Shown here: positions 2,330 to 18,552 of the stretch, piece by piece
How positions within the stretch are numbered: position 1 is the first letter of the stretch
Layout of the letters: each line of letters begins with the position of its first letter
From: Melioribacteraceae bacterium
GTDB lineage: Bacteria; Bacteroidota; Ignavibacteria; Ignavibacteriales; Melioribacteraceae
NCBI GenBank assembly: GCA_016927595.1
Contig: JAFGMI010000042.1
Coordinates: 1 to 64,000 of the forward strand
DNA length: 64,000 nt
Reading direction: 5' to 3'
Position numbers and translations under genes: made by a program
Notes under the pieces: model-generated
What the model was told of the DNA's origin: nothing
Database searches by the model: none
What the model saw: only the letters and a program-made list of their open reading frames with translations

Positions 2330-3747
2330 GTTATAACCTCCGCGGTGAATACTTCCGGGAACAATACATTAAAATGTTTTTTAATTATCTGTTTTACCAG
2401 CAATGATTTGTATTCTTTTGAACCTCTGATGTCTGAGATAGGAGCTAACTCGTTCTGTGAATCATCAACAACATATTGCAAGAGACCAGGTTCAATTTTT
2501 CTGCCAAGAATATCTTTTGATAATTTTGCCATATATAATGGTACCGGAGCAACACCTCCGAATGATAGATGTGCTTCTTTTACAATTTCATCCTCAATAG
2601 TCATACTCATTGCAGAATTAACTGTTGCAATATCCAGATGCTGACGCTTTGATACTTTTTCAAAATTGAAATAAAAATTCTCTGACGGTTTATTAATTAT
2701 TATTTTTGAGATGTACTCATCATCGCTTTTATCGAGGGATTTATATCCTTTATAGAAATCCTTCAAATTTATTTCGCGCTGCCTTTTATTGTTAACGAGA
2801 ATCAGCTTTGCATTAATGCCGAGTAGGAATATACTCAAGTCGCCAATCGGTGAGGCATTTACAATATTTCCTGCAATCGAAGCTGCATTACGAATCGGTA
2901 AAGATGCTATTAAATGCATATATTCATGCAACCCGGGAAAGTACAAACCGATTATATCACTTCTATTAAACTGTTCGAAGCTCACATTAGCCCCGATATG
3001 TATTTCGGTCTCTGTTTCCGTTATCTCACTGGCAATTGAGTCAGAAACATATTCATTCTCACTGTCGGTTAAATCATCGGGATGTTGTACAAATAAATCT
3101 GTCCCCCCACAAATTATTCTCTTCCCTTCATTTAAACGAATTGTTTTAACTACATCGGTTGATATTTCCATCAATTTATTCTGTATCCCGCGGAAGTATT
3201 CCGGTACAATTTTCAGCCCTACTAGATTATCGATTCGTGATAATTTATGGCTCCAGTTAGCGTTTACACTATCGATTAAATTATTTACTGATCTCCTGAT
3301 GGACATGTACCCCGTGCAGCGACATATATTCCCAGCGATGGCATCAACAGCCGTGTTGTAATTATACTGTTCTTCACTTAACAGATAACAGGTTAAAGCC
3401 GTTATAAATCCCGGAGTGCAGAAACCACACTGGCTGGCAGCCTCATCGATAAATGCCTGCTGAATAGGTGTGAATTCAGATTGATTCAACCCTTCTATCG
3501 TTACAATATGTTTAGCATTCACATTGCCTATAGGATAAATACAGGAGTTTATTAATTTGTATATGATCTTGTTTTCATTTATTTCACCTTTAATTACCGC
3601 ACAGGCACCGCAATCTCCCTCCCTGCAGACTTCCTTAGTCCCCGTAAGCTTTTTATGCTTCCTGATAAAATCGAGCAGTGTAAGAGCAGGGTTTTCGAAA
3701 CACTCAACAATTTCATCATTTAAAACAAATTTGATCTGTGCTTCCAT
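2326..3747 (-). CDS. xdhA: Xanthine dehydrogenase, fused 2Fe-2S/FAD subunit
   Basis: This is the electron-transfer subunit partnering the downstream molybdenum subunit. The N-terminal 160 residues hold two [2Fe-2S] clusters: the plant-ferredoxin type with CREGDCGAC (about 41-49), and the helical one with CGFCTPGFI and CRCTGY. The remainder is the CO-dehydrogenase-type FAD domain with CGGTD (about 214) and SIAGNIVNASPIGD (about 291). A length of 473 aa matches the fused XdhA family. The downstream gene starts within its stop codon (ATGA). It is separated by 53 nt from the preceding threonine-synthase-like gene and probably shares its transcript. A second, unfused FAD plus FeS pair for another Mo hydroxylase lies at 10458-11773. 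Confidence 0.92.
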   Translation of the reverse strand: MEAQIKFVLNDEIVECFENPALTLLDFIRKHKKLTGTKEVCREGDCGACAVIKGEINENKIIYKLINSCIYPIGNVNAKHIVTIEGLNQSEFTPIQQAFIDEAASQCGFCTPGFITALTCYLLSEEQYNYNTAVDAIAGNICRCTGYMSIRRSVNNLIDSVNANWSHKLSRIDNLVGLKIVPEYFRGIQNKLMEISTDVVKTIRLNEGKRIICGGTDLFVQHPDDLTDSENEYVSDSIASEITETETEIHIGANVSFEQFNRSDIIGLYFPGLHEYMHLIASLPIRNAASIAGNIVNASPIGDLSIFLLGINAKLILVNNKRQREINLKDFYKGYKSLDKSDDEYISKIIINKPSENFYFNFEKVSKRQHLDIATVNSAMSMTIEDEIVKEAHLSFGGVAPVPLYMAKLSKDILGRKIEPGLLQYVVDDSQNELAPISDIRGSKEYKSLLVKQIIKKHFNVLFPEVFTAEVIT

Positions 3748-3800: not shown

Positions 3801-5039
3801 TCATTTCAACATCAACTGGGATCTGATCTCATCATAGTTATATATTTCAGGCACTATATTCCAGTCGCTTAAAGCTTTTGTATCTTTTAGTCCATTTCCG
3901 GTAATGCATAGCATGGCATTTTTGTAATAAGATTCAAAACCCTGATTGCGAATACTGAGATATGCAGCAAATACCGAAGCAGCGGAAGGTTCACAAAATA
4001 TTCCATGATGAGCAGCCAAATATTTTTGAGCTTCCAGTATTTCATTATCACTAACAGATAAGGCAATCCCCGCTGTCTTTCTTACCGAATCAACTGCCAT
4101 ATAAAGATTCCGCGGAGCTGCGGCGTCAATGCTGTCAGCTATTGTATCAGTTTTGTTAAATATAAATTTATCCGACTCCATAAAACGTACGAGTGCATTG
4201 CTTCCTTTTGCCTGAACAGCAATTAAGTGCGGTATCTTCCCGATAAATCCTAATTCCAGCAAGTCATAAAATCCTTTATAAAGTCCCGATATTATAACAC
4301 CGTCACCTGCAGGGACGAATAAAGAATCAGGTATTTCCCCGGAACACGAAATAAAAATATCGTAGGCTGCAGTTTTCTTTCCTTCTATTGTCAGCGGATT
4401 ATATGCTGTATTGCGGTTATACCATTTTTTCGCTGATGCAACTTCATTACAAAGATCAAATGCGTCATCATATGTTCCGTCTATAATATATATTTTTGAA
4501 CCATAGGATTGGATTTGCACGCGCTTCGAGATTGGTATACGGGAAGGTACAAAAACATGACTTCTCAGACCCAATATAGCGCTTATACCAGCCAGTGATG
4601 ATCCTGCATTCCCCGTGGAAGATGTACATACATCAGGGATATCCAATTCTCTTGCTTTTAGGCAGGCGAGTATTGATGCGCGGTCCTTTAATGATAAAGT
4701 AGGATTCAGTGTATCGTCGAAAATCTTAATAGTATCTCCAGCATGATTAATATTATAAATACGAGGATTCAGATTAATCCTGATATCATCATCGATGTGC
4801 TTAACGGGTAGTAAATCTTTGTAGCCGGAGAAATTCCCTGCATTCAGTCTCAAAAATTTATTCCTGTCCAGATTTGAATCCAACTCATCGTAGTCATAAA
4901 AAATATTCATTACTCCTTTAAGAGGTTGATTTCTTTCGGCTAAACCACATTCCGGACATAAATATAAAAAGTTTTCTTCAATCAGTTCTTTACCGAACTC
5001 TTTTCCGCAGCAGGAACATTTATATTTATAATCTGTCAT
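3801..5039 (-). CDS. Threonine synthase-like PLP enzyme with zinc ribbon
   Basis: This is a fold-type II pyridoxal-phosphate enzyme. Residues about 8-34 form a zinc ribbon with two CxxC pairs (CSCCGKEF and CPECGLAE), as in many threonine synthases. The PLP lysine lies in NPTLSLKDRAS (about 112-122), the cofactor-phosphate/substrate loop is STGNAGSS (about 140-147), and a C-terminal ITGNGLKD resembles threonine synthase. Family membership is clear, but the substrate is not. Its place 5 nt after ygeW and before xdhA, with no homoserine or threonine genes nearby, argues for a catabolic role in the purine island, for example ammonia elimination from a diamino acid. A true threonine synthase moved into the cluster is the alternative. 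Confidence 0.82.
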   Translation of the reverse strand: MTDYKYKCSCCGKEFGKELIEENFLYLCPECGLAERNQPLKGVMNIFYDYDELDSNLDRNKFLRLNAGNFSGYKDLLPVKHIDDDIRINLNPRIYNINHAGDTIKIFDDTLNPTLSLKDRASILACLKARELDIPDVCTSSTGNAGSSLAGISAILGLRSHVFVPSRIPISKRVQIQSYGSKIYIIDGTYDDAFDLCNEVASAKKWYNRNTAYNPLTIEGKKTAAYDIFISCSGEIPDSLFVPAGDGVIISGLYKGFYDLLELGFIGKIPHLIAVQAKGSNALVRFMESDKFIFNKTDTIADSIDAAAPRNLYMAVDSVRKTAGIALSVSDNEILEAQKYLAAHHGIFCEPSAASVFAAYLSIRNQGFESYYKNAMLCITGNGLKDTKALSDWNIVPEIYNYDEIRSQLMLK

Positions 5040-5044
5040 GATTT

Positions 5045-6070
5045 TTACATTGTTAATGACATAATTGCTTTCGCAGTATGAAGCCTGTTTTCAGCTTCAT
5101 CATATACGATGGAGATATTTTCATCATCAATAATTTCGTCTGTGACCTCATGTCCTCTGTCTGCAGGCAGAGCGTGCATAAGTTTAACATGCTTATCGGC
5201 GAGTTTTATTTTTCTTTCGTCGCAGATCCAGTTGTGATATTTCTCCAGATTAGTTTTCATTTCTTTTTTACAGTCGGTTTCATTCCTCAAATATTCATCA
5301 ATATCATAGTATCCGAACCCGCCCCAATTTTTCGGAATAACTATATTTGCACCCTCAAAAGCTTCATCCATATTCTCTGTAAAATTAATACTTCCACTAC
5401 CTACTTCAGCATTTTTATATGCCTTTTCAACAATATTTTTTGATAATGGAAATTCTTTCGGATGAGCAACCGTAACATCGATTCCGTAGCGGGGGAAAAG
5501 CAAAATCTGAGTCTGCGGAACCGACAACGGTTTGGAATGCGTATCGGCGTATGCCCAGGAAATAGTTACTTTAAGTCCTTTTGTATTTCGGTCAAAATGT
5601 TCAAATATAGTCATTAAATCAGCCAGCCCCTGAAAAGGATGATATATATCGTCCTGTAGAGACATTACCGGTTTACTTGAATGTTTTGCCATCGTCGATA
5701 AATAATCGGAACCTATACCGTAAAAACAATTCCTGCAGGCAATACCATGTCCCATCCTCGATAAAATTACAGCCGTATCTTTCGCTGATTCACCATGAGA
5801 TAACTGCATTTTATCAGCAGTAAGATCGTGAGCATGACCTCCAAGCTGGGTCATTCCCGCTTCCATCGAGTTCCTGGTGCGGGTAGACTGTTCAAAGAAC
5901 ATCATAAAAAGTGTTTTATATGGAAGATGAAGATGCGGTATTTCGTTATAAAACTTTTGCTTTAACTCCAGCGCGCGTTCAAATACAATATCCAGTTGAG
6001 TTTTATTCCAGTCTTCGCAGGTAAGAAAGTGTTTTCCTTTTAATGATTCATACATATTATATTCCCACAT
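5045..6070 (-). CDS. ygeW: Knotted carbamoyltransferase YgeW
   Basis: The protein belongs to the aspartate/ornithine carbamoyltransferase superfamily, of the YgeW knotted type. It carries the carbamoyl-phosphate motif STRTR (62-66) inside FFEQSTRTRNSMEAG, the HPFQGLADLMT segment (about 143-153), and HALPADRGHEV near residue 300 in place of the HCLP of ornithine enzymes. In purine catabolism it is proposed to work backwards, phosphorolysing a ureido or oxamate-like carbamoyl intermediate to carbamoyl phosphate; the true substrate is unresolved. The ATG overlaps the stop of ygeY by one base (TAATG). A second in-frame ATG at 6055 gives a start at MYESLKGKHF and is also possible. The usual partner for harvesting ATP, carbamate kinase, is not in the window. 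Confidence 0.92.
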   Translation of the reverse strand: MWEYNMYESLKGKHFLTCEDWNKTQLDIVFERALELKQKFYNEIPHLHLPYKTLFMMFFEQSTRTRNSMEAGMTQLGGHAHDLTADKMQLSHGESAKDTAVILSRMGHGIACRNCFYGIGSDYLSTMAKHSSKPVMSLQDDIYHPFQGLADLMTIFEHFDRNTKGLKVTISWAYADTHSKPLSVPQTQILLFPRYGIDVTVAHPKEFPLSKNIVEKAYKNAEVGSGSINFTENMDEAFEGANIVIPKNWGGFGYYDIDEYLRNETDCKKEMKTNLEKYHNWICDERKIKLADKHVKLMHALPADRGHEVTDEIIDDENISIVYDEAENRLHTAKAIMSLTM

Positions 6071-7260
6071 TAATAGTTTGCAAAATAAGCAGCATAAAAT
6101 GCCGATGCCCTGACAAGATGGTCGACAGGAACTTTTTCATTTGGTGCATGCGCATATGTTTCATCGCCCGGGCCGAAACCTATTACTGGTATATTATGCA
6201 AGCCATTTATAGCGATTCCGTTAGTCGAAAAAATCCATTTATCAATCAGAGGCTGCGCATTAAATAATTCCTTATATACTGCAACGCCTTTTTTAATAAT
6301 TTCATGCTGGTCATCAACAACCCATGTTGGATAATATTTTCTCATGCCGTATTTCTTACCTGTAAAAGTGGTTTCTTCAAAATATAGAGTTTCAACCTCT
6401 GCCTTTTCGCTTTTGCTTTTAATAATCTCATTGATTTGATCCAGAGCAACTCGTTCATCTTCACCGTGAGTGAGTCTTCTATCGATATGTATTTGTGCAA
6501 AATCGGAAACCGCACATAATGAAGGAGTTTCGGATTTAATCTCCGTCACAGTAATCGTTCCCTTACCTAAAAAAGGGTCATCTTTTAATACAGTATTTAA
6601 TTTTTCTATTTCCAGTGCAACTCGTGAAGCCATGTAAATTGCATTTACTCCTCTCTCGGGAGCTGATCCGTGTGAAGATACACCGTGAAATTTTACGCGC
6701 ATTTCCATTCTTCCTCTTTGACCGCGCAATATTCTGAGATTTGTCGGTTCAGTTACAATAACGCATTCGGGCTTTAATCCCTCCTCTTCAAGAATATACT
6801 TCCAGCACAAACCGTCGCAGTCCTCTTCCATTATTGAACCTGTAAAGTATACTGTCAGATCTTCGCAAAGTCCCAATTCCTTAATTATTCTTCCGGCAGT
6901 TATAAATGCTGCAACGCCTCCTTTCTGATCAACACTCCCTCTACCCTGAACAAAGCCGTCCTTTATTTCACCGCTTAGAGGATCAAAGTCCCAGTTATCA
7001 ATATTCCCCACATCAACTGTATCTACATGTCCGTCTATTGCAACTATTCGCTTACCATTACCTATTCTGCCTATAACATTACCCAGCCCATCTATCAGCA
7101 CATCATCAAATCCCGCTTTCTCCATCATGGATTTTATCTCGAGCACGACATTTTCCTCTCTACCGCTTAATGATTTTATACGAATCAGCTTTGATAAATG
7201 TTCTGCTGTATAGGATTCATATTTCTTTGCAGTTATATTAATTTCTTCATATAGATTCAT
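6070..7260 (-). CDS. ygeY: YgeY family M20 metallo-hydrolase
   Basis: This is an M20-family zinc amidohydrolase/peptidase, consistently linked with ygeW and ssnA in purine-degrading clusters, where it probably hydrolyses an amide or ureido intermediate. Metal and catalytic motifs are visible: GHVDTVDVG (about 76-84), GRGSVDQKGG (about 108-117), the acidic pair in GSIMEEDCDG (about 145), and a late HAPNEKVPVDH that supplies the last metal histidine. I chose the ATG at 7260 because an AGGGG ribosome-binding site sits 8 nt upstream; the upstream GTG at 7269 has no such spacing. The protein is 396 aa, normal for the family. It is the first gene of a leftward operon, divergent from ygfK. Confidence 0.92.
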   Translation of the reverse strand: MNLYEEINITAKKYESYTAEHLSKLIRIKSLSGREENVVLEIKSMMEKAGFDDVLIDGLGNVIGRIGNGKRIVAIDGHVDTVDVGNIDNWDFDPLSGEIKDGFVQGRGSVDQKGGVAAFITAGRIIKELGLCEDLTVYFTGSIMEEDCDGLCWKYILEEEGLKPECVIVTEPTNLRILRGQRGRMEMRVKFHGVSSHGSAPERGVNAIYMASRVALEIEKLNTVLKDDPFLGKGTITVTEIKSETPSLCAVSDFAQIHIDRRLTHGEDERVALDQINEIIKSKSEKAEVETLYFEETTFTGKKYGMRKYYPTWVVDDQHEIIKKGVAVYKELFNAQPLIDKWIFSTNGIAINGLHNIPVIGFGPGDETYAHAPNEKVPVDHLVRASAFYAAYFANY

Positions 7261-7313
7261 AATTGTCACCCCTGATTATAAAATGGTTGGTAAAGGACTT
7301 TGTGAGAAGTTTT

Positions 7314-7342: not shown

Positions 7343-7409
7343 GTTTTAAAAATACAAAAAAAATATTTTTATTAATACTGTGATATGTTTAATTAAGGAT
7401 AATAACATC

Positions 7410-10400
7410 ATGTCCGATAAAATGTACCCGATTCCAGCAGACAGACTATTCACAAGAATTATTAATGAATATACGACTACTAAAACAATTTTCGGAATTC
7501 ACGAAAAAGATTTTTACAAACCTGCGAATAACAATTATAGTCCGTCATCGTACATGACAGATAATATTATTGGTCCCGCTTCCGGTCCACATACACAAAT
7601 GTCTCAAAACATTATATGCTCATATTTAACCGGTGGAAGATATATTGAATTAAAAACCGTGCAGATTCTTGATCAGCTGGCTATCGAAAAACCATGCATT
7701 GATGCTACTGATGAATGCTATAACACCGAATGGTCGCAGGAATTAAGGCTTGATGAATCTTATGAAGAATACGTGAAAGCCTGGGTGTTCATTCATTTCC
7801 TGAAAAATCTTCTGGGTCTTTCAGGCAGCAAAAGTGGTTTTGTATTCAATATGAGCGTCGGTTATAATCTCGAAGGGATAAAATCCGAATCGATTGATAA
7901 TTTCATAAATGGGATGATGAACACTGATGCAGAAAATGTATTCAATAGTATAATTAACAAACTTGATCTATTGTGCAGTATTGAATTCAATAAAAATATA
8001 TTAAAAAATATTAATCCTGATTTCGACTATAAAAATAGTCTGGCTGAGATACCAACATCTATTACTGACTCTGTGACTCTGTCCACAATGCATGGATGCC
8101 CTCCCGACGAAATTGAGGCTATAGCTTCTCATTTAATGAGTAAGAAAAAATTAAATACGTATATAAAACTGAATCCTACTCTTCTTGGTATCGATTTCGT
8201 CAATAAAATAATCTCGGATCTCGCATATAATTATATATCAGTCGGTAAGGATGTATTCGATAAAGATTTAACTATGGATGAGGCTATCCCGATGGTGTCA
8301 CGTTTAAGCAGAATCGGTGAGGTGAACGAAAGGGAGTTCGGAATTAAATTGTCGAATACACTGCCAGTAAAAAACGCAAAACCGAAATTAGCTGCCGGTG
8401 AAATGTATATGTCCGGTCGTTCATTATTCCCCTTAACAATAAATCTTACAAAGGAAATTTGCGAGCGTAGCGACTATAATTTAAATATATCTTTCTCTGG
8501 CGGAGCCAATTCACTTAATATTAAAGACCTCATGCTGTGCGGCTTCCGATCGGTTACGATGGCAACGGAATTGCTGAAACCAGGTGGTTTTTTAAGACTG
8601 AAGCAGATAGCTGAACTATCGGATATGGTAAAACATCCGGTCTCATTAGAAAGAGAAAAAATAATAGAACTTGCAAAATTGTCCACTACAACCGATTATT
8701 ATAAAAAAGATACGCGCACTATTGAAAGCATAAAGATACCCAAAAGTCTGCCGCTGCTGGATTGTTACATCGCCCCCTGCCAGACAGCATGCCCCATACA
8801 TCAGGATGTTCCTGAGTATATTGCGAGGCTGAAACAGGGTGATTACAAGGAAGCGCTAAAAATTATAATAGATAAAAATCCGCTCCCGCATATTACAGGT
8901 TATATATGTGATCATCAGTGTATGGCACACTGTACACGCTGGGATTATGAAACACCCGTACTGATAAGGGATCTCAAAAAGATTGCAGCACTTAAAGGTT
9001 ACGATGATTTAGTAAAAGAATATGAATTTCCTACTCCGAACGAAGATGCTTCGAAAATTGCAATTATAGGAGCAGGACCAGCCGGTCTGTCAGCTGCATA
9101 TTTTTTAGCCCGAGCCGGATTGGACGTTACAATATTTGAAAAAGAGAACTCCGCTGGTGGTGTTGTCAAAAATATTATACCCCGTTTCCGGCTGCCTGAA
9201 GAGGCGATAATCAGGGATATCAGGTTTATCGAAAAACACGGCGTCAGGTTTGTTTTCGGTTTTGACCCCGATGTATCTATTGAAGCATTACAAGCTGAAG
9301 GTTATCATTACATAGTTCTTGCTATCGGAGCCGAAATACCGAATACAATCAACTTTCTGAAACATGAAGGCAGTATCATCAACGCTTTAGATTTTCTGAG
9401 AAGATACCACTTTATTAATGAAGAGATTGATTTGGGAAGTAATGTAGCAGTTATAGGCGGCGGTAATTCCGCCATGGATAGTGCAAGAGCGGCAATGAGA
9501 TGCGCTAAAGTAGAAAATGTATATCTTATATACCGCAGAACTAAAGATTATATGCCCGCGGATAAAGAAGAATTTTTTGCTGCATTAAAAGACGGCGTCC
9601 ATTTTGAAGAATTATTACAGCCGGTTAGTTTCATAAACGGTGAATTAAAATGTCAGTGTATGAAGCTTGATGAGATTGATGATGACGGCAGACGCAAAGC
9701 CAAACCGATTGATGATGAATATACTTATTTCCAAATTGATACGATTATATCGGCTGTAGGCGAACATACAGATTATGAGCTGCTCGCAAGCAATAATATA
9801 AAAAGAATTAATAAGAAGACATTTATGAATGAACAGACTCTCGAAACAACCATGGAAAATATTTTTGTTTGTGGAGATGCCGGCAACGGTCCGGCAACAG
9901 TTGTAGAAGCTATAGCTGATGCACGAAAAGTAACGGATGAAATAATAAGGAGAGCGGGAACAAACGTTAAACAATATAATATAGAACTGGATAATTTAGA
10001 TTCTCAGGTAATCAGCGACAAAGGGTATATAAAGCAGTCCAGCGTTGATGATGTTAGTGAGGAAGCCGGCAGATGCCTTCTGTGTTCGTTCGAATGCAAT
10101 AAGTGCGTTGATGTCTGTCCTAACAGGGCTAATGTTGCGGTTAAGATAAATACTTCCGGATTAAAGGATAAATATCAAATACTTCACCTGGATGATTTAT
10201 GCAATGAATGCGGTAATTGCGAAACATTCTGTCCCTACCAGGGGAAACCGTACAGAGACAAACTCACTTACTTTTCCTCAGAAAATGAGTATTTAAAAAG
10301 TATTAATCCCGGCTTTTATTTTATTGATGATGAGAATATAAAATTAAGAATTAATGGTGAGGAACATTTTTTTGCTATTGGATCAGATTCTCTTAACGAT

Positions 10401-10466
10401 AATAAGTTTATCTCAAGAAAAGTTATAAATCAGATCATTCAAAATTTCAGATACTTGTTAAGGTGA
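7410..10466 (+). CDS. ygfK: YgfK-type iron-sulfur flavoprotein oxidoreductase
   Basis: This large redox protein is the signature of the purine/selenate island, once called a putative selenate reductase subunit and now tied to anaerobic purine breakdown. Residues 1-430 form the YgfK-specific front half, resembling a dihydroorotate-dehydrogenase barrel. About 450-830 is a GltD/NfnB-like module: cysteines in CYIAPCQTACPIHQD and CDHQCMAHC, an FAD motif IIGAGPAGLSAA (about 550), an NAD(P) motif IGGGNSAMDSARAA (about 680) and GDAGNGPATVVEA. About 888-945 carries two 4Fe-4S motifs, CLLCSFECNKCVDVCP and CNECGNCETFCP. ATG 7410 follows AAGGA by 10 nt; the upstream GTG at 7380 is less likely. It is the only rightward gene of the island, and its 3' end overlaps the convergent FeS gene by 9 bp. 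It probably links NAD(P)H or ferredoxin electrons to purine reduction. Confidence 0.93.
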   Translation: MSDKMYPIPADRLFTRIINEYTTTKTIFGIHEKDFYKPANNNYSPSSYMTDNIIGPASGPHTQMSQNIICSYLTGGRYIELKTVQILDQLAIEKPCIDATDECYNTEWSQELRLDESYEEYVKAWVFIHFLKNLLGLSGSKSGFVFNMSVGYNLEGIKSESIDNFINGMMNTDAENVFNSIINKLDLLCSIEFNKNILKNINPDFDYKNSLAEIPTSITDSVTLSTMHGCPPDEIEAIASHLMSKKKLNTYIKLNPTLLGIDFVNKIISDLAYNYISVGKDVFDKDLTMDEAIPMVSRLSRIGEVNEREFGIKLSNTLPVKNAKPKLAAGEMYMSGRSLFPLTINLTKEICERSDYNLNISFSGGANSLNIKDLMLCGFRSVTMATELLKPGGFLRLKQIAELSDMVKHPVSLEREKIIELAKLSTTTDYYKKDTRTIESIKIPKSLPLLDCYIAPCQTACPIHQDVPEYIARLKQGDYKEALKIIIDKNPLPHITGYICDHQCMAHCTRWDYETPVLIRDLKKIAALKGYDDLVKEYEFPTPNEDASKIAIIGAGPAGLSAAYFLARAGLDVTIFEKENSAGGVVKNIIPRFRLPEEAIIRDIRFIEKHGVRFVFGFDPDVSIEALQAEGYHYIVLAIGAEIPNTINFLKHEGSIINALDFLRRYHFINEEIDLGSNVAVIGGGNSAMDSARAAMRCAKVENVYLIYRRTKDYMPADKEEFFAALKDGVHFEELLQPVSFINGELKCQCMKLDEIDDDGRRKAKPIDDEYTYFQIDTIISAVGEHTDYELLASNNIKRINKKTFMNEQTLETTMENIFVCGDAGNGPATVVEAIADARKVTDEIIRRAGTNVKQYNIELDNLDSQVISDKGYIKQSSVDDVSEEAGRCLLCSFECNKCVDVCPNRANVAVKINTSGLKDKYQILHLDDLCNECGNCETFCPYQGKPYRDKLTYFSSENEYLKSINPGFYFIDDENIKLRINGEEHFFAIGSDSLNDNKFISRKVINQIIQNFRYLLR

Positions 10467-10913
10467 TTTGATTGCTTCTATGATCTGTTTATATCCTGTA
10501 CACCGGCATAAATTACCCGCAATGGCTTCTTGAATTTCAACTTCGGTGGGATTCGGATTTTTAAGTAACAGTGCATAAGCCGACATAATCATGCCGGGAG
10601 TACAAAATCCGCATTGGACTGCACCTTTTTCCATAAAAGACTTCTGCAGTTTATTCAGTTCACCGTTTTTCTCCAATCCCTCTATGGTAGTAATTTCCGA
10701 ACCTTCGCATTGTCCGATCACTATTAAACAGGAATTTACTGCATTACCGTTAATTACTACAGTACAGGCACCGCATTCCCCTATTGAACAACCTTCTTTA
10801 GTCCCTGTTAAATTTAATATTTCCCTGAGTACATCTAATAAACGCATAGAAGGTTGAACATCTATTCCGACTTTATCTCCATTAATTGTAAGATTAATTC
10901 TTCTTATCATCAT
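10458..10913 (-). CDS. Molybdenum hydroxylase 2Fe-2S subunit
   Basis: This 151-aa subunit carries two [2Fe-2S] clusters for the adjacent molybdenum hydroxylase. The motifs are CSIGECGACTV with a following cysteine in NAVNSCLI, then CGFCTPGMI and CRCTGY. It passes electrons from the Mo centre to the FAD subunit encoded just upstream. I start it at the ATG at 10913, which overlaps the TGA of the FAD gene (ATGA); the longer reading frame from 10988 would run through the end of that gene with an unrelated N-terminus. The stop lies inside the convergent end of ygfK. It corresponds to the FeS part that E. coli XdhD carries as an N-terminal fusion, so here the enzyme is split into three genes. Confidence 0.92.
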   Translation of the reverse strand: MMIRRINLTINGDKVGIDVQPSMRLLDVLREILNLTGTKEGCSIGECGACTVVINGNAVNSCLIVIGQCEGSEITTIEGLEKNGELNKLQKSFMEKGAVQCGFCTPGMIMSAYALLLKNPNPTEVEIQEAIAGNLCRCTGYKQIIEAIKSP

Positions 10914-11773
10914 CGTCTCAGGCAATTGTCTTCTAACAAAGAATATATTAGTCGCTGCAAAACAGGTAATTTGTATTCTGAAGACCATCTTAAGCCGGTT
11001 GACTCAAGCACAGCCTTTCCGCATCTGATTGAGATATCAATCAGTAAATCCCTGTCAATTTTTTTTCCGTCTGCATAATTTTCAATCTCATAAAATCTTT
11101 TACCGATGGGTGTTACCGCACCGCTGGCAATCTTGAAGTCTGTAAATTTGTTGTTTTTAATTTCAAAAAGGATAGCTAGTGTAATCCGGCTTATTGCTAC
11201 TCCCCTGCGTCTGCCAAGTTTATAAAATACATCGTTAAGACTTTCCCGGGGTTTATGAATAACTATTTCTGTTACAATTTCTTCATTTGTTAAACTTGTT
11301 CTATAGGGAGATATTAAAAAGTCCTCAAGATTTATCATTCTTTCGTGATGAATAGAATTTATTTTAATTCCGGCATTATAAACCAGAAGAGGCGGAACAC
11401 TATCGGCGCAAGGTGCATTGTTTATAAAGTTGCCCCCGATTGTAGCTCTGTTTCGGATCTGTCTGCTGCCGATTTTAGAAACTGCTTTTACGAGTAAGGG
11501 CAAATGTCTCTGCAATATTTCATCCGATTCAATCTCCGAAAAGGTTGTTGCAGCTCCAATAATAATTTTATCTTTCTCTTCACTGATTCTTTTAAGTTCC
11601 TTTATCCTTGAAATATCAACAAGTTTGTTAAAATCCCGGAATCTATTTGAATTGATATGGATGCCTGGAATAATATCAGTCCCTCCTGCAATTACATGGG
11701 AATTTCCATCCTCAAGCAACTCAAGAGCTTCATCAAGCTTCCAGGTGCTAAATAATTCAATATCCCTTTTCAA
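10910..11773 (-). CDS. ygfM: Molybdenum hydroxylase FAD-binding subunit (YgfM-like)
   Basis: This is the FAD subunit of a three-part molybdenum hydroxylase, resembling E. coli YgfM. The two FAD-binding signatures are AGGTDIIPG (about 29-37) and ATIGGNFINNAPCADS (about 107-122), followed by the CO-dehydrogenase flavoprotein C-terminal domain. It is 287 aa, normal for a stand-alone subunit. It overlaps the Mo subunit gene upstream and the FeS gene downstream by 4 bp each (both ATGA), so all three subunits are probably made in equal amounts. In gut purine degraders this subunit travels with XdhD and YgfK. Confidence 0.9.
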   Translation of the reverse strand: MKRDIELFSTWKLDEALELLEDGNSHVIAGGTDIIPGIHINSNRFRDFNKLVDISRIKELKRISEEKDKIIIGAATTFSEIESDEILQRHLPLLVKAVSKIGSRQIRNRATIGGNFINNAPCADSVPPLLVYNAGIKINSIHHERMINLEDFLISPYRTSLTNEEIVTEIVIHKPRESLNDVFYKLGRRRGVAISRITLAILFEIKNNKFTDFKIASGAVTPIGKRFYEIENYADGKKIDRDLLIDISIRCGKAVLESTGLRWSSEYKLPVLQRLIYSLLEDNCLRR

Positions 11774-14157
11774 TTCGTACTACCTCTACTTAAATCATTT
11801 GGCGACAATTTCCTGCTCAACAATATTTCTTCCGGATTAAGCGGCAGATTAAAATACCTTAATCCTGTCGCATTTTTCACGGCGTTAGCAATCGCAGCAG
11901 CGGTTAATTCCAATGTTGGTTCACCAAGCGACTTTGCACCCCATGCGCCATAAATATCTTCCCCTTCAAGGAATATGCTTTCAATCTCACCAATATCTTT
12001 ACTGGTAGGTATCAAAATCTGGTCAAAATTGTTCTCTCTTATATTACCATTATAAGTAGTGATCCCCTCCCATAACGCGTACCCTGCCCCTTGTGTTACA
12101 CCGCCGAAAACCTGTCCCTTTGCTCCCATTAAATTTATAATTTTCCCCGGATCATGAACCGCAACTATTCTGTCTACAAAAATTTCACCCGTTAGTAAAT
12201 TTGCTGACACCTCTGCGACCTGACATCCATAAACATATGTAAAATATGCTGCTCCCTGACCCTTTTCTTCATCCCAATGTACCGATGGTCCCTTAAACCA
12301 ACCTATTGCTGACATATTCAAACCTTTCGAATACGCTAAAGAGCACAATTCGCTAAAGCTGATTGAGCGGGATTGTTCGTAAACCCGATTATTTTTGAAA
12401 AGTAACTGATCCTTACTCTTTATATTCCAATAAGTTAGAAGCATTTCTTCAAATCTTTTTTTAATAATTTCCGCTGCATTCTTCACTGCACTCCCCCCCA
12501 TAATTGTGGACCGGGATGCAACTGTCGGACCACTGTCGGCGATAATACCAGTATCCTGTTCCAGGTAGTAAATATGCTCCGGAGAAATTCCAAGTACCTC
12601 TGCCGCAATAATAGAGAATGTGGTTCTTAATCCTTGTCCGTTTTCAGCTAATCCTGAAATCAAATATGCTGATCCATCCTTTTGCACTGATAAATAAGCG
12701 GCAGCTGCATCAATTCCTTCTGCTCCCAGGGAGCATCCTCTTAGACTAACAGCTAATCCTATTCCTTTCTTAATAATATCTCTGTTATCCAGCATCTCAT
12801 CCTTCTTAAGGATAAATCCAGATCCACGGAACTTTTGACTTGTCTGGAATTTTGTATTTGCAGATCTGGAGCACTCCTTATGCCTTTCCGTAAAATTTGT
12901 CTCTCTTTCAGCTCTTTCCAGAACGCTTAGAAGATTTACATCATGATCCCTTAGTTTATGTCCCGATGCTGTAATTGAACCCGGCTTAACTCCATTAATC
13001 TTTCTGATCTCATAAGGAGAAACTCCGATGATTTCAGCAATTTCATCCATAAGTGATTCCTGAGCAAAAATAGGTTGCGGAGATCCGAACCCTCTCATGG
13101 CTCCGGTATAAGGATTATTTGTATAAACTGCTCTTACATCGGTGTGTACATTTTCTATTTCATAAGGACCTGTCGCCTGAACAACTGTCCTCCAGGTTAC
13201 AAACGGGCTCATCGATGCATACGCTCCGCCGTCTGCAAGTATATCAATCTTCATCGCCTTTATTATACCGTCGTCATTGAATCCAACCTTATATTTCATA
13301 ATATACGGATGACGCTTATACGACTCAACAACCGATTCTTCCCTTGTATACCTTACTTTAACAGGTCTTCTGGTTTTAATAGCTGCAATTGCTGCACGTG
13401 CAGATATTATATTCATTAAATCATCTTTTCCACCGAATGCACCACCGAGTTCCGCTTGTACTACACGGACTTTAGTGAGTGGAAAGTTCAGGACTTCAGC
13501 TACTATTCGTCTTGTGGTATGGGGATTTTGTATACTCCCGATTATTCTTACTCCTCCCCTCCCTTCTATCGGTACTGCGGTTACTGCTTCTGGTTCAAGA
13601 TATGCATGTTCGATAAGTGGCGTAGTGTACTTTTGTTCTATAACATGTTTCGATTCGTGAAAACCTTTTTCAACATCTCCTTTTCTTAAAGGGTAATGAA
13701 CGATTAAATTACTTTTCTTATCCGGATGAATAAACGTTGCATCCGGATCTAGTGCCTTTTCAGGATCAGTAATTAATGGTAATTCTTCCAGTTCAGTTTT
13801 TACTTTTGCAGTTAATAATTTCAACTGACTTTCATCAGCACCTACAAGCATGCAAATTACATCACCGGGTGTAACAATTTTTTCGTAACAGAAAACCGGC
13901 TGATCAGCTGTTACAACACCAACTTTTCTGCTTCCCCTGATATCATTTATATCACAAACTGTAACTTCCGGATAGTCTAGTAATCCGGAATAATCAATGC
14001 TATGTATTAAAGCATGAGAAACATCAGTTCTTACCATAACCCCGAATAACATACCCGGGAATTTGTAATCATCCGCAAATTTTGCCTGACCTGTTACTTT
14101 TGCGTAAGCATCCTGTCTTACAACTGATCTGCCAACTATATTGAAATCCCCGGACAT
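11770..14157 (-). CDS. xdhD: Molybdenum hydroxylase Mo subunit, XdhD-like
   Basis: This is a 795-aa molybdopterin subunit of the xanthine dehydrogenase/aldehyde oxidase family. It has Moco loops LGGAFGGKDD (about 237-246) and GAMRGFGSPQ (352-361) and a catalytic-base motif SLGEPTLE with Glu746. Unlike the xanthine dehydrogenase at 77-2329, the position equal to bovine Glu802 is Asp245 while Arg355 is kept, so the substrate pocket differs. The name xdhD rests on synteny with ygfM, ssnA, hyuA and ygfK; E. coli XdhD is a larger fusion that includes FeS clusters, which here are a separate gene. The start abuts the stop of ssnA with no gap (TAAATG). A hydroxypurine, run in the oxidising or reducing direction, is the likely substrate. 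Confidence 0.88.
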   Translation of the reverse strand: MSGDFNIVGRSVVRQDAYAKVTGQAKFADDYKFPGMLFGVMVRTDVSHALIHSIDYSGLLDYPEVTVCDINDIRGSRKVGVVTADQPVFCYEKIVTPGDVICMLVGADESQLKLLTAKVKTELEELPLITDPEKALDPDATFIHPDKKSNLIVHYPLRKGDVEKGFHESKHVIEQKYTTPLIEHAYLEPEAVTAVPIEGRGGVRIIGSIQNPHTTRRIVAEVLNFPLTKVRVVQAELGGAFGGKDDLMNIISARAAIAAIKTRRPVKVRYTREESVVESYKRHPYIMKYKVGFNDDGIIKAMKIDILADGGAYASMSPFVTWRTVVQATGPYEIENVHTDVRAVYTNNPYTGAMRGFGSPQPIFAQESLMDEIAEIIGVSPYEIRKINGVKPGSITASGHKLRDHDVNLLSVLERAERETNFTERHKECSRSANTKFQTSQKFRGSGFILKKDEMLDNRDIIKKGIGLAVSLRGCSLGAEGIDAAAAYLSVQKDGSAYLISGLAENGQGLRTTFSIIAAEVLGISPEHIYYLEQDTGIIADSGPTVASRSTIMGGSAVKNAAEIIKKRFEEMLLTYWNIKSKDQLLFKNNRVYEQSRSISFSELCSLAYSKGLNMSAIGWFKGPSVHWDEEKGQGAAYFTYVYGCQVAEVSANLLTGEIFVDRIVAVHDPGKIINLMGAKGQVFGGVTQGAGYALWEGITTYNGNIRENNFDQILIPTSKDIGEIESIFLEGEDIYGAWGAKSLGEPTLELTAAAIANAVKNATGLRYFNLPLNPEEILLSRKLSPNDLSRGSTN

Positions 14158-15477
14158 TTATTGCAATTCATTAAATTTCTGGAAGAGTCTTTTACCTTGT
14201 ATATATATTTTATCCCTTAAATCCGATGTGTCAAAAGGAAGAATGAAATCCTTCATAATGAATACTCCTTTTGAAACCACACTCCTGATTTGCGATTCAA
14301 GTATACCATAGATGTAGTGACCGAAGAAATTATCAACATTAAAGGGTGTGGGAGGAACATAATCCCAGATTATAAAATCCGCATTTTCTCCCTCATTAAG
14401 CTTTGAGAATCCTGGGAAAAATTGTGATATAAATTCAATCTGGTTATGGTACGAAGAACTATACTTTTTGAAGGTCTGCTCAAATGACAAACCTGAACTC
14501 CGCATCATCAGAAATAATGATTTTTGAGATGATGCAATATTGGCATGCATGCCGTCAGTGCCGATAAGAATGGGTATATCGGCATTCGCCCTGAAATCCG
14601 GCAGACCGACCGAATTATTTAAATTAGAATGCAGATTATATGCGATTGCAGCTCCTGACTTTTCTATGATCTTCAGCTCATTATCTGACAAATGTATACC
14701 GTGAGCCAGAATGCTCTTTGAATTTAAAAGTCCGAATTGCTGAAGCCGTTGTACCGGACTTAAGCCAGACATTTTTAATGTTATGAGGACATCGCTTTCA
14801 TCTTCGCAAAGATGAATGTGAATGCCCGTACCAATTTCATCAATTATTTTTTTCGCACTTTTTAACGTGTCATCATGAATCGTGAATGAAGCGTGCAGAC
14901 CGAGAAGTATTTTACTATTCTCATCCAAAGATTTTGAATATATTTTTTGTTCATTTAACGAGTCAGATTTAATCGATTCACCATCCCTATCAGAAGTTTC
15001 GAAACACAATACGTTCCTTATTGAATATTTTTTAAGAACACTGTTTATTAGTTCAAGGCTGCCATTCACAAATGATGGTGAAGAGTGATGATCAATAACG
15101 TATAATACGCCGTTCCTTATCGATTCCAATGCGCCTAATTCTACGGAAGCTTCGAGAATATCCCTGTCAATAATTTTGTCAATTTTCCACCATAAATTTT
15201 CAAGGATCTGCTGAAAATTCGCTGTCGGTTTTTTTATGGATAAACCTTTTGCCAGCCTTGAGTAAAAATGTTCATGAAAGTTGACATGAGGAATGGTAAC
15301 AACCCGTCTTTGAAGGTCAATTTCTGACCCGACAGGATCTGAATACTGATTATAGTTTTTCGGTTTAATTTCTGAAATAATCCCATCATCTACCACATAA
15401 TCACAATAAACAGGTATTACTGCGCCATTAGACACTCGGCAAAGATTAGCATTTAATATTTTGAAGCTGTGGCTCAT
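14158..15477 (-). CDS. ssnA: SsnA family aminohydrolase
   Basis: This amidohydrolase-superfamily deaminase belongs to the SsnA group, a fixed partner of ygfK and xdhD. The metal-binding HxH is in NFHEHFYSRLAKG (about 102-114), the family-typical NLWWKIDKIID follows, a second histidine cluster appears in IHIHLCEDE (about 223), and the late metal Asp lies in LIGTDGMHANI (about 304). At 439 aa it is near the usual 440. It probably hydrolyses an amidine or imidazole C-N bond in a ring-opened purine product. It lies 6 nt after hyuA. The N-terminal beta-sandwich (1-65) and late repeat of that fold (from about 360) are typical of cytosine deaminase-like enzymes. Confidence 0.9.
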   Translation of the reverse strand: MSHSFKILNANLCRVSNGAVIPVYCDYVVDDGIISEIKPKNYNQYSDPVGSEIDLQRRVVTIPHVNFHEHFYSRLAKGLSIKKPTANFQQILENLWWKIDKIIDRDILEASVELGALESIRNGVLYVIDHHSSPSFVNGSLELINSVLKKYSIRNVLCFETSDRDGESIKSDSLNEQKIYSKSLDENSKILLGLHASFTIHDDTLKSAKKIIDEIGTGIHIHLCEDESDVLITLKMSGLSPVQRLQQFGLLNSKSILAHGIHLSDNELKIIEKSGAAIAYNLHSNLNNSVGLPDFRANADIPILIGTDGMHANIASSQKSLFLMMRSSGLSFEQTFKKYSSSYHNQIEFISQFFPGFSKLNEGENADFIIWDYVPPTPFNVDNFFGHYIYGILESQIRSVVSKGVFIMKDFILPFDTSDLRDKIYIQGKRLFQKFNELQ

Positions 15478-15483
15478 CAGAAA

Positions 15484-16944
15484 TCAATTTTTAATTTCAA
15501 GCAGTTTACCCAAAGAATAATCATTGGTTAAAAATTTTTCCGTATTATTTGAAATCAAATTCCCTCTTAAATAAACCTTTTCTACGTTGCAACCCAATTT
15601 CACTCCTTCAAACGGCGTATATTTGCCTTTACACAGCATTTCACTTGATGTTATTTGATAAGTTTTCCATGGATTCACTAGACAAAAATCAGCATCAAAA
15701 CCTTTCATGAGTCTGCCTTTGCTTTTCAGATTAAATAATGTTGACTGATTAGCTGACAATATTTTTATAGCTTCCTCCAGAGATATTCTTTTTTTCAAAA
15801 AACCTTCACTAAGTATGAAAGCTACTCTATGCTGAACCCCTGGTATACCTCCGTAAACTTCCCAGAAATTCTCAGTTTTTTTTTCAATGTCAGGGTCACA
15901 ACCGGCATGATCTGTTGTCACGAAATCAATTGTACCACTTCTTAAGCCATCCCATAACGATTCTCTGTCGCTTTCAAATTTTACCGGTGGTGCGGTTTTA
16001 AGATATTTTGAAATTTCAGTATTCCCAAAATCTTCCTGGGTAAAATGGAGATAATGCGGACATGTTTCACAAGTAATTCTGGTTTCATGCTTTTTAGCCA
16101 GAGAAATCAATTCCATAGCACGCGAAGAACTTAAATGCACTATATGAAATCTGCATCCGGTTTCCTCTGCAATTTTTATTATTTCCTGAACAGCTCTAAC
16201 TTCCGCATCGGTATCTCTCGCCTCGCAATATGCATTCCAGTTATTCATGTTTTTGTGTTTCAATAGGTCGCTTCTTGTTTTCACCAGATACTTATCCTCA
16301 GCATGAACAGCAATAATTTTTCCGGTCTTTGATAAAAACTTTGCGGTTTTTTTAAGCTGATCGAAAGTCAGATCTTTGAATTCGTTCATACCTGATATCA
16401 AGTATGTTTTGAAGCCAGCTACACCTTTATCAATAAGTTCCTGCATAAACAACCGAGGCGGGTTATCTCCTGTAAAATCGTCTCCCCGTACTCCTCCCCA
16501 TAATGCATAATCAACTATGCTCTTATTCTTAATAGCCATTAATTTTTCGGAATAATTTTTTGCCGATGTTACAGGCGGTACTGATGTACACGGCATATCA
16601 AAAACAGTGGTAGTACCTCCTGCTGCAGAAGCTCTGCTGCCATGCTCAAAATCATCTCTGAATTCATAACCCGGTGTGTCGAAATGTACATGTGTATCAA
16701 TTCCTCCGGGAATCAGTAAACTGAAATTTCCATCTGTAACACCGATGGATCTTCCCGGAACATTAAAATTTGCTTTATCTTTAAAATGCCTGAGCTTTTC
16801 AACAGTATCGATTTCAGACCAGCAAACCGGATTATTAGATTTTTTAATTATTGTTTCAATTCTCGAATTAAATTCTATATCCGCAAGAAACAAGTAATTA
16901 TCCCGGGATGAGATAAATACATTATTTATTCTGCTCGTTTGCAT
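15484..16944 (-). CDS. hyuA: Dihydropyrimidinase/hydantoinase-type amidohydrolase HyuA
   Basis: This is a cyclic-amidohydrolase (hydantoinase, allantoinase, dihydropyrimidinase family) opening hydantoin-like rings. It shows the binuclear zinc motif GGIDTHVHFDTPG (HVH at 85-87), the carbamylated lysine in GFKTYLIS (about 178), histidines in VHAED and FHIVHLSSS, and the aspartate in FVTTDHAGCDPD. It is 486 aa, within the family range. It follows the upstream PLP gene by only 3 nt and precedes ssnA by 6 nt. In this setting it most likely cleaves the imidazole- or hydantoin-ring product of purine degradation. Motifs alone cannot separate allantoinase from hydantoinase activity. Confidence 0.9.
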   Translation of the reverse strand: MQTSRINNVFISSRDNYLFLADIEFNSRIETIIKKSNNPVCWSEIDTVEKLRHFKDKANFNVPGRSIGVTDGNFSLLIPGGIDTHVHFDTPGYEFRDDFEHGSRASAAGGTTTVFDMPCTSVPPVTSAKNYSEKLMAIKNKSIVDYALWGGVRGDDFTGDNPPRLFMQELIDKGVAGFKTYLISGMNEFKDLTFDQLKKTAKFLSKTGKIIAVHAEDKYLVKTRSDLLKHKNMNNWNAYCEARDTDAEVRAVQEIIKIAEETGCRFHIVHLSSSRAMELISLAKKHETRITCETCPHYLHFTQEDFGNTEISKYLKTAPPVKFESDRESLWDGLRSGTIDFVTTDHAGCDPDIEKKTENFWEVYGGIPGVQHRVAFILSEGFLKKRISLEEAIKILSANQSTLFNLKSKGRLMKGFDADFCLVNPWKTYQITSSEMLCKGKYTPFEGVKLGCNVEKVYLRGNLISNNTEKFLTNDYSLGKLLEIKN

Positions 16945-16947
16945 ATA

Positions 16948-18414
16948 CTATATTTTAACATCTGCTCTTGTATTAAAATTTTCGATTAGTTTATCCCATA
17001 GCGAAACAACAGAAAATCTCTCATGCCAGTATTCATCGCTGTTCCATTGTGCGTTCAATTCTGAAACATCCTTCCCCTGCTGCTCAACCCATGTAAAATA
17101 TTTCAGGTTGTGTATTGACTTTTTATCGTAGTATGTTAATTCCTTGAAGTAATCGAAGGACTGTTTCTTCAGTACCGATACATAATCAATTTCAGCTTGT
17201 TGCAAAGTGTACTCCCCGTAAGCTGAGTTCATTTCATTTAAACGGGAAATGTAAAGATCCGAGGAGTCAGTGAAAACAGTAAAAATGATATCCTCTTCAC
17301 CCATCTCATAATATTTCGCCAGTTTTATGGCGCTGAGAAGATTGCTTATACTTGATATACCGATATCCGGAAGTTTTTTTATAACAGAATCATCAACCCC
17401 AAGTGATACGAGAAATTCATGCCCTTCCATTTCATTGAATAATCTTAATATTCGCATCGGATCTTCATCATCTATGGCGCAAACCGCATCGGTATTCTTC
17501 ACATTGTGAATCCATGGAATGTGCTTGTCTCCGATTCCTTCAATTCTGTGCCCTCCGAAACCGTTCAAAAGGAGTGTGGGACATTGTAATGCTTCGGATG
17601 CAAGAATCTTTATATGAGGATAAATTTTTCTCAGGTAATCACCGGCAGCAATTGTGCCTGCGGAGCCTGTAGCACTGACAAACGCAGATAATTTCTGATT
17701 ATTACTTTTAACTTTATTAAACAGCTTCTCGATTGTGTAGCCTGTAATTTCATAATGCCATATACTGTTGCCGAACTGATCGAACTGATTAAATATCATA
17801 TATTCATCACTTTCAGCCTCAAGTTCATGACATTTATCGTAAATTTCTTTTACGTTGCTCTCACATCCCGGAGTTGCATATATTTCAGCCCCTCTCTCTC
17901 TCAGCCACTCAAATCTTTCTTTGCTCATCTCTTCAGGAAGTATTGCAACTGAGTGAACGGATAATAATCTCGAGTTGAATACTCCTCCTCTGCAGTAATT
18001 ACCCGTAGAAGGCCAAACGGCTTTATGATATTCAGGGTTGAACCTGCCGGTTATAAGATAAGGGACCAGGCAGCCATAAGTTGCTCCGACTTTGTGTGCA
18101 CCGGTCGGAAAATTCTTCCCAATCAAACCAATTATTCTGGCTTTGACTCCTGTAATTTGTTTCGGTATTTCCAGAAAGTTAATTCCGTTAAACAATCCTG
18201 ATTCCGGTTCATTACACCAATTTATTCTGAAAAGATTCAATGGATGCAAATCCTGTGCATCAATCTTACGTATTGCACCTTTAAGTTTATCAGGTATTGA
18301 TTCGGGGTGTTTAAGTTGTGCGAAAGTAGGTAATATAATCTTGTTATCGCGGCAGCGTTCGATTGTTCTTTTTAGAAAATCTTCATTTTCAACTTCCCAG
18401 CTCCATTTTTCCAT
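16948..18414 (-). CDS. Fold-type II PLP-dependent lyase-like enzyme
   Basis: The protein (488 aa) has fold-type II PLP features: the cofactor lysine in PTGAHKVGATYG (about 102-113), an asparagine loop PSTGNYCRGG (about 135-144), and a glycine-rich phosphate loop ATGSAGTIAAG (about 250-260). It is about 90 residues longer than the E. coli diaminopropionate ammonia-lyase YgeX and does not share YgeX signatures that I can recognise, yet it takes that position at the head of the hyuA-ssnA-Mo hydroxylase operon. I infer an ammonia-eliminating role on the final amino acid intermediate; a cysteine-synthase-like activity is possible. The start at 18414 is favoured by a GGTG just upstream; in-frame GTG codons at 18423 and 18420 are alternatives. 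Confidence 0.78.
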   Translation of the reverse strand: MEKWSWEVENEDFLKRTIERCRDNKIILPTFAQLKHPESIPDKLKGAIRKIDAQDLHPLNLFRINWCNEPESGLFNGINFLEIPKQITGVKARIIGLIGKNFPTGAHKVGATYGCLVPYLITGRFNPEYHKAVWPSTGNYCRGGVFNSRLLSVHSVAILPEEMSKERFEWLRERGAEIYATPGCESNVKEIYDKCHELEAESDEYMIFNQFDQFGNSIWHYEITGYTIEKLFNKVKSNNQKLSAFVSATGSAGTIAAGDYLRKIYPHIKILASEALQCPTLLLNGFGGHRIEGIGDKHIPWIHNVKNTDAVCAIDDEDPMRILRLFNEMEGHEFLVSLGVDDSVIKKLPDIGISSISNLLSAIKLAKYYEMGEEDIIFTVFTDSSDLYISRLNEMNSAYGEYTLQQAEIDYVSVLKKQSFDYFKELTYYDKKSIHNLKYFTWVEQQGKDVSELNAQWNSDEYWHERFSVVSLWDKLIENFNTRADVKI

Positions 18415-18457
18415 ATTCACCACTTAATTTAATATTCAAAGAGCTAAATGAGACAAT

Positions 18458-18486
18458 AGTATACGAATTTAAGACATGTTTTTCAA
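18458..18486 (-). promoter_or_regulatory. Sigma70-type promoter of the hyuA-ssnA-Mo hydroxylase operon
   Basis: On the minus strand TTGAAA (18486-18481) and TATACT (18463-18458) are spaced by exactly 17 nt. Transcription would begin near 18451, leaving a leader of about 37 nt before the preferred ATG at 18414. Matching element pairs upstream of 44519, 50769 and 51026 support it. Confidence 0.6.
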
Positions 18487-18512
18487 TAGTGCAAAATTAT
18501 AAGATAATTTTA

Positions 18513-18538
18513 TGCCACCGCTGATTTCAACGGTGACA
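18513..18538 (-). terminator. Hairpin after pgi
   Basis: TGCCACCG and CGGTGACA (18513-18520, 18531-18538) form an 8-bp stem with one mismatch and a 10-nt loop. It lies 15 nt past the pgi stop on the minus strand and just before the next operon's promoter. The T-rich tail is weak (TAAAATTATCTT), so termination is plausible rather than certain. Confidence 0.4.
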
Positions 18539-18552
18539 TATCGAATTGTGAA

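Follow-up and report, generated by a model that had tools for sequence, protein, structure and literature searches.

PLP488, a cysteine-synthase-related enzyme and candidate replacement of YgeX in a divergent reductive uric-acid cluster

A fold-type II PLP enzyme from a Melioribacteraceae bacterium is, on balance, probably a non-orthologous 2,3-diaminopropionate ammonia-lyase, which would stand in for YgeX in the last reaction of the reductive uric-acid pathway. PLP488 is our label for the family of this protein, which is encoded at 16948..18423 on the minus strand of the window, i.e. the analysed stretch of 64,000 nucleotides. The assignment suggests that the final step of uric-acid degradation has been reinvented from the cysteine-synthase family. 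The pathway was resolved only in 2025, and both pathway and function are already known. The PLP488 family in the terminal role appears to be new as far as the searched literature goes; no earlier description of the family in the uric-acid pathway was found in that literature, which omitted many journals.

The PLP488 gene and its cluster

The initial annotation placed a 488-aa protein at the head of an operon, and this proved correct. The minus-strand reading frame is followed by genes for a HyuA-like protein, SsnA and three XDH subunits, in this order and in a single direction, with few-base gaps or small overlaps; the HyuA-like start lies 3 bp past the PLP488 stop. This six-gene operon adjoins the genes of YgfK and YgeY. 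The features of the region are as follows.

77..2329, minus strand: xanthine dehydrogenase, Mo-binding subunit
2326..3747, minus strand: xanthine dehydrogenase, small subunit (FeS + FAD)
3801..5039, minus strand: TS-like, a second fold-type II PLP enzyme, threonine-synthase-like (412 aa, CxxC...CxxC N-terminus)
5045..6070, minus strand: carbamoyltransferase, YgeW-like but OTC-type (TIGR03316 169 bits, cut-off 500; PRK00779 225 bits)
6070..7269, minus strand: YgeY (511 bits, cut-off 321.5)
7380..10466, plus strand: YgfK (1244 bits, cut-off 835)
10458..10988, minus strand: molybdenum hydroxylase, 2Fe-2S subunit (called start overlaps the FAD-subunit gene)
10910..11773, minus strand: molybdenum hydroxylase, FAD subunit
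11770..14157, minus strand: molybdenum hydroxylase, Mo-binding subunit
14158..15477, minus strand: SsnA-like aminohydrolase (345 bits, cut-off 444)
15484..16944, minus strand: HyuA-like cyclic amidohydrolase (NCBIfam allantoinase AllB 370 bits, cut-off 358; 26% identity to E. coli HyuA)
16948..18423, minus strand: PLP488, fold-type II PLP enzyme of the CysK/CBS clade (491 aa from GTG at 18423; 488 aa from ATG at 18414)
18458..18540, minus strand: terminator-like hairpin behind the upstream gene (18540-18511), followed by a promoter-like site (18486-18458), from a consensus scan only

The hairpin and the promoter-like site, which are consensus matches only, indicate that PLP488 probably starts a transcript. 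A scan of genome contigs returned at least 587 relatives of PLP488, and the 80 that were kept are 57-75% identical by alignment. Such high conservation across several phyla means that PLP488 is no chance reading frame.

YgfK and YgeY exceed their cut-offs, whereas SsnA and the YgeW-like protein remain below theirs in the window (both models are exceeded in other PLP488 clusters). The cluster of the window is therefore a divergent version of the one for reductive uric-acid degradation, which probably serves uric acid digestion in many anaerobic bacteria. With the clusters of E. coli, C. difficile and C. sporogenes (PMC12507026, PMC12990295) it shares YgfK, YgeY, SsnA, a HyuA-type protein, a carbamoyltransferase and molybdenum hydroxylase genes. 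Unlike them, it lacks YgeX and contains PLP488 and TS-like; its carbamoyltransferase is of the OTC type, and its HyuA resembles allantoinase. The carbamoyltransferase scores far too low for the YgeW model, whereas a true YgeW is encoded in other PLP488 genomes; the window protein is possibly a second replacement within the pathway. The HyuA-like protein passes the AllB cut-off, and automatic annotation would label it an allantoinase inside a uric-acid cluster. The two molybdenum hydroxylase sets (77-3747 and 10458-14157) are distinct: one matches xanthine_xdhB (800 bits), the other is XdhA-like (457 bits).

Relationship of PLP488 to CysK, CBS and YgeX

The fold-type II assignment made in the initial annotation is borne out by the Pfam PALP match (52 bits, cut-off 35) and by an AlphaFold2 model with a pLDDT of 90. 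Its statement that no YgeX features can be recognised also holds. The YgeX models TIGR03528 and NF006058 remained below their cut-offs, with NF006058 (cut-off 276) coming closest at 10.3 bits (E = 0.18), and E. coli YgeX used as a query gave no match in the 64-kb window at 1e-5. The best NCBIfam matches were CysK/CysKM at about 100 bits, under a cut-off of about 350; the CysK equivalog TIGR01139 itself scored 100.3 bits against 351. No model of OrtB (2-amino-4-oxopentanoate thiolase), which we considered as another candidate identity, was among the NCBIfam matches of PLP488, the presence of OrtB in the library being unconfirmed.

When the model was compared with known structures, about 300 residues aligned with beta-cyanoalanine synthase, CysK and CBS (Z 30-34, with Z 34 for 3VC3); O-ureido-L-serine synthase (3x44, Z 31.8) was also among the neighbours. 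YgeX was missing from the structure lists, which alone was not taken as evidence against YgeX identity. In a tree of 28 rows, in which long branches are present, PLP488 grouped with CysK/CysM at a support of 100/99.9, and a common clade of PLP488 and YgeX was rejected (AU p = 0.010). Membership in the YgeX family is therefore ruled out by profile and tree evidence, with which the fold agrees. Both the sensitive profile search and the structure comparison, proposed earlier as checks of the YgeX question, thus place the enzyme in the CysK/CBS clade.

The residues that bind PLP and substrate in CysK are retained. In an alignment of 61 family members, CysK K42, N72, Q143, the G177-T181 loop and S273 fall on invariant or nearly invariant positions, namely K108, S136-N139, Q210, G250-T254 and S354 of PLP488; the set comprises the PLP lysine, the TSGN-type loop, the glutamine, the glycine-rich loop and the serine. 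PLP488 nevertheless differs from CysK, cystathionine beta-synthase and beta-cyanoalanine synthase in its identity of about 18-28% over the structural core, in additional helical parts outside that core (N-terminal, about residues 1-40, and C-terminal, about 400-488) and in its genomic setting. Moreover, the active-site loop A232-G233-F234 of CysK is replaced by D296-K297-H298 in 61/61 members.

With YgeX (TIGR03528; PDB 4D9G) PLP488 has in common the fold type, in some genomes the place between ygeW and ygeY and, presumably, the same step. It differs in its clade, in the absence of a passing profile match and in its length, which at 488-491 aa against 398 aa is about 90 residues greater, as originally noted. 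In E. coli YgeX, D120 and D189 are the catalytic aspartates. Neither is matched by Asp in PLP488, where D120 aligns to Thr137 and the D189 region to a CysK-type NQF motif, the alignment being weak there. The non-Asp residues at these positions count against the lyase reading.

Distribution of PLP488 and occupation of the ygeX slot

Among the matches listed, the hosts of PLP488 include Ignavibacteria, Bacteroidales, Calditrichota, Elusimicrobia, Omnitrophota and others. The gene was found in 24/296 genomes of the window's phylum and in 34/160 Elusimicrobiota genomes; the comparison of PLP488 and YgeX did not extend to Bacillota and Spirochaetota, two phyla in which YgeX clusters are frequent. 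YgeY accompanies PLP488 in 39 of 43 genomes, a count that ignores shared ancestry. In Elusimicrobiota, YgeY occurs in 28/33 genomes with PLP488 and in 4/46 without it (Fisher 3e-12, which ignores relatedness). All 11 genomes of the phylum sample in which YgfK exceeds its cut-off carry PLP488. YgeY is absent at E<=1e-60 from nine to ten PLP488 genomes, depending on sample overlap (G303 counted once, G304-G306 and five more Elusimicrobiota), and these genomes count against the lyase reading.

The YgeX profile gave no match in the window's own genome at E<=1e-10. A YgeX-family gene (300-509 bits) is present in 5 of the 43 PLP488 genomes, each time amid unrelated genes and off the cluster, and in the remaining ones the profile yields at most weak scores of 41-48 bits. 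At E<=1e-60, YgeX was found in none of the 160 Elusimicrobiota genomes, compared with 34 that have PLP488.

The gene order in E. coli is ygeW-ygeX-ygeY. In locus L122 (genome G074), ygeW (8000-9190; 634 bits, cut-off 500), PLP488 (9202-10647) and ygeY (10714-11919; 571 bits, cut-off 321.5) follow one another on one strand, and L123 has the same order; in L125, ygeW and PLP488 overlap by 4 bp. The position of YgeX, which the initial annotation ascribed to this protein, is thus occupied exactly by the family elsewhere (L122, L123), with YgeX absent or unlinked, but not in the window, where PLP488 is not between these genes and TS-like adjoins the YgeW-like gene. The lack of YgeX in the genome, the occupation of the ygeX slot elsewhere and the co-occurrence with YgeY, together with the CysK/CBS affiliation, make the suggested non-orthologous replacement likely.

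A published survey used Pfam PF00291 alone as its YgeX marker (PMC12507026). By this marker both PLP488 and TS-like would count as YgeX, and the replacement would be hidden. The same paper makes no mention of Bacteroidota or Ignavibacteria, and with PLP488 as a named family, uric-acid degraders could be recognised in phyla outside its survey.

Some loci depart from the usual arrangement. Carbamate kinase is added in the Elusimicrobiota loci L204 and L205, the latter also having HyuA and SsnA. In L063 and L065, PLP488 and TS-like stand alongside carbamate-kinase-like and radical-SAM-like genes, with YgeY elsewhere or absent. A congeneric genome (G059:C52:36642-38148; L105, L106) has a split PLP488: one fragment covers residues 1-259, the other 277-490, with about 90 bp between them, owing to either a broken gene or an assembly error.

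Proposed reaction and the second PLP enzyme

In the proposed mechanism, YgeW-type and YgeY enzymes would first strip two ureido groups, leaving 2,3-diaminopropionate as the substrate of PLP488. Its external aldimine would displace the Lys108 aldimine, and the carboxylate would be gripped by the S-T-G-N loop and Gln210. The beta-amino group may then be eliminated as ammonia, the leaving amine being protonated by the family-specific Asp296-Lys297-His298, and the resulting aminoacrylate would hydrolyse to pyruvate and a second ammonia. Because YgeW, HyuA and SsnA are divergent in the window, the substrate of PLP488 could differ here. Relatives in the CysK/CBS group mostly perform beta-replacement and act on L-amino acids. 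This habit counts against the lyase reading, as the intermediates of uric-acid degradation have been proposed to be of the D/R configuration (PMC12990295). The isomer preference of PLP488 and TS-like therefore bears on the stereochemistry of these intermediates.

The initial annotation considered a single PLP enzyme and overlooked TS-like. The nearest relative of TS-like, and not of PLP488, is threonine synthase (PDB 2ZSJ, 1UIM). The window protein has a four-Cys N-terminus, and the Arg of the threonine-synthase motif NPxRIEGQKT, presumably phosphate-binding, is changed to Thr. TS-like was found in 23/296 genomes of the phylum, all 23 among the 24 with PLP488, and in 30 of the 34 PLP488 genomes of Elusimicrobiota. 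In profile space it is nearer to YgeX than PLP488 is (hhalign 99% vs 81%). A protein with this similarity that accompanies PLP488 in nearly all genomes also counts against PLP488 as the lyase.

TS-like may assist, for example by handling the opposite isomer, or have a separate function. According to one reading, PLP488 and TS-like would jointly replace a YgeX of dual specificity: each might take one isomer of diaminopropionate (L or D), or one of them might be a racemase supplying its partner. E. coli YgeX is equally active on the D- and L-isomer (PMC12507026), which fits such a division, as do the nesting of TS-like within the PLP488 genomes of the phylum and the loss of the motif Arg. The two genes lie side by side in several Elusimicrobiota, in the same orientation and separated by about 25-70 bp, and across loci TS-like stands beside ygeY, ssnA, a YgeW-like gene or XDH genes. 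However, four genomes (G152, G353, G368, G435) have PLP488 and YgeY without YgeX and without TS-like at E<=1e-100, and in 26 Elusimicrobiota genomes TS-like occurs without PLP488, none of them with YgeY, so the TS-like family is not tied to the uric-acid pathway. Such a sharing of the reaction is consequently rather doubtful. We would put forward only tentatively, as a somewhat better prospect, that the PLP488 family and its TS-like partner form a two-enzyme module in place of the dual D/L-specific YgeX, giving anaerobic uric-acid degradation in Bacteroidota and Elusimicrobiota a stereochemically distinct end.

It is unlikely that PLP488 is instead a beta-replacement enzyme, which would salvage the C3 skeleton of diaminopropionate, or of a ureido intermediate (albizziin, for example), by converting it into cysteine or a different beta-substituted alanine, with TS-like as the lyase. 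Its CysK/CBS fold and clade and the structural proximity of O-ureido-L-serine synthase are consistent with this chemistry, but its gene neighbourhood and its occurrence together with YgeY speak for a catabolic role, the window's genome carries a CysK of its own, and TS-like is missing from some PLP488/YgeY genomes. Very improbable is a mere genetic linkage of PLP488, acting in a different amino-acid step, to the purine cluster, as the linkage and co-occurrence recur across phyla and some of the YgeY-less exceptions retain ssnA/XDH-like neighbours (L198), even though in others PLP488 lies amid unrelated genes (L062, L066).

TS-like as the sole replacement of YgeX was rejected as a lead, given the 0/26 YgeY among TS-like-only genomes and the PLP488/YgeY genomes without it. 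Since YgeY follows PLP488 and not TS-like, the terminal lyase is more likely to be PLP488. A fusion of PLP488 and TS-like in G425 (an open frame of 902 aa) was ruled out, because, by their coordinates, the two genes are read in different frames. In Elusimicrobiota with genomes of 1.2-1.7 Mb, a TS-like subgroup (L186-L193), marked by the motifs KDRGSA and S/T-GNASDS, is present where both YgeY and PLP488 are missing, and some of its genes adjoin that of an apparent sodium-pumping decarboxylase beta subunit.
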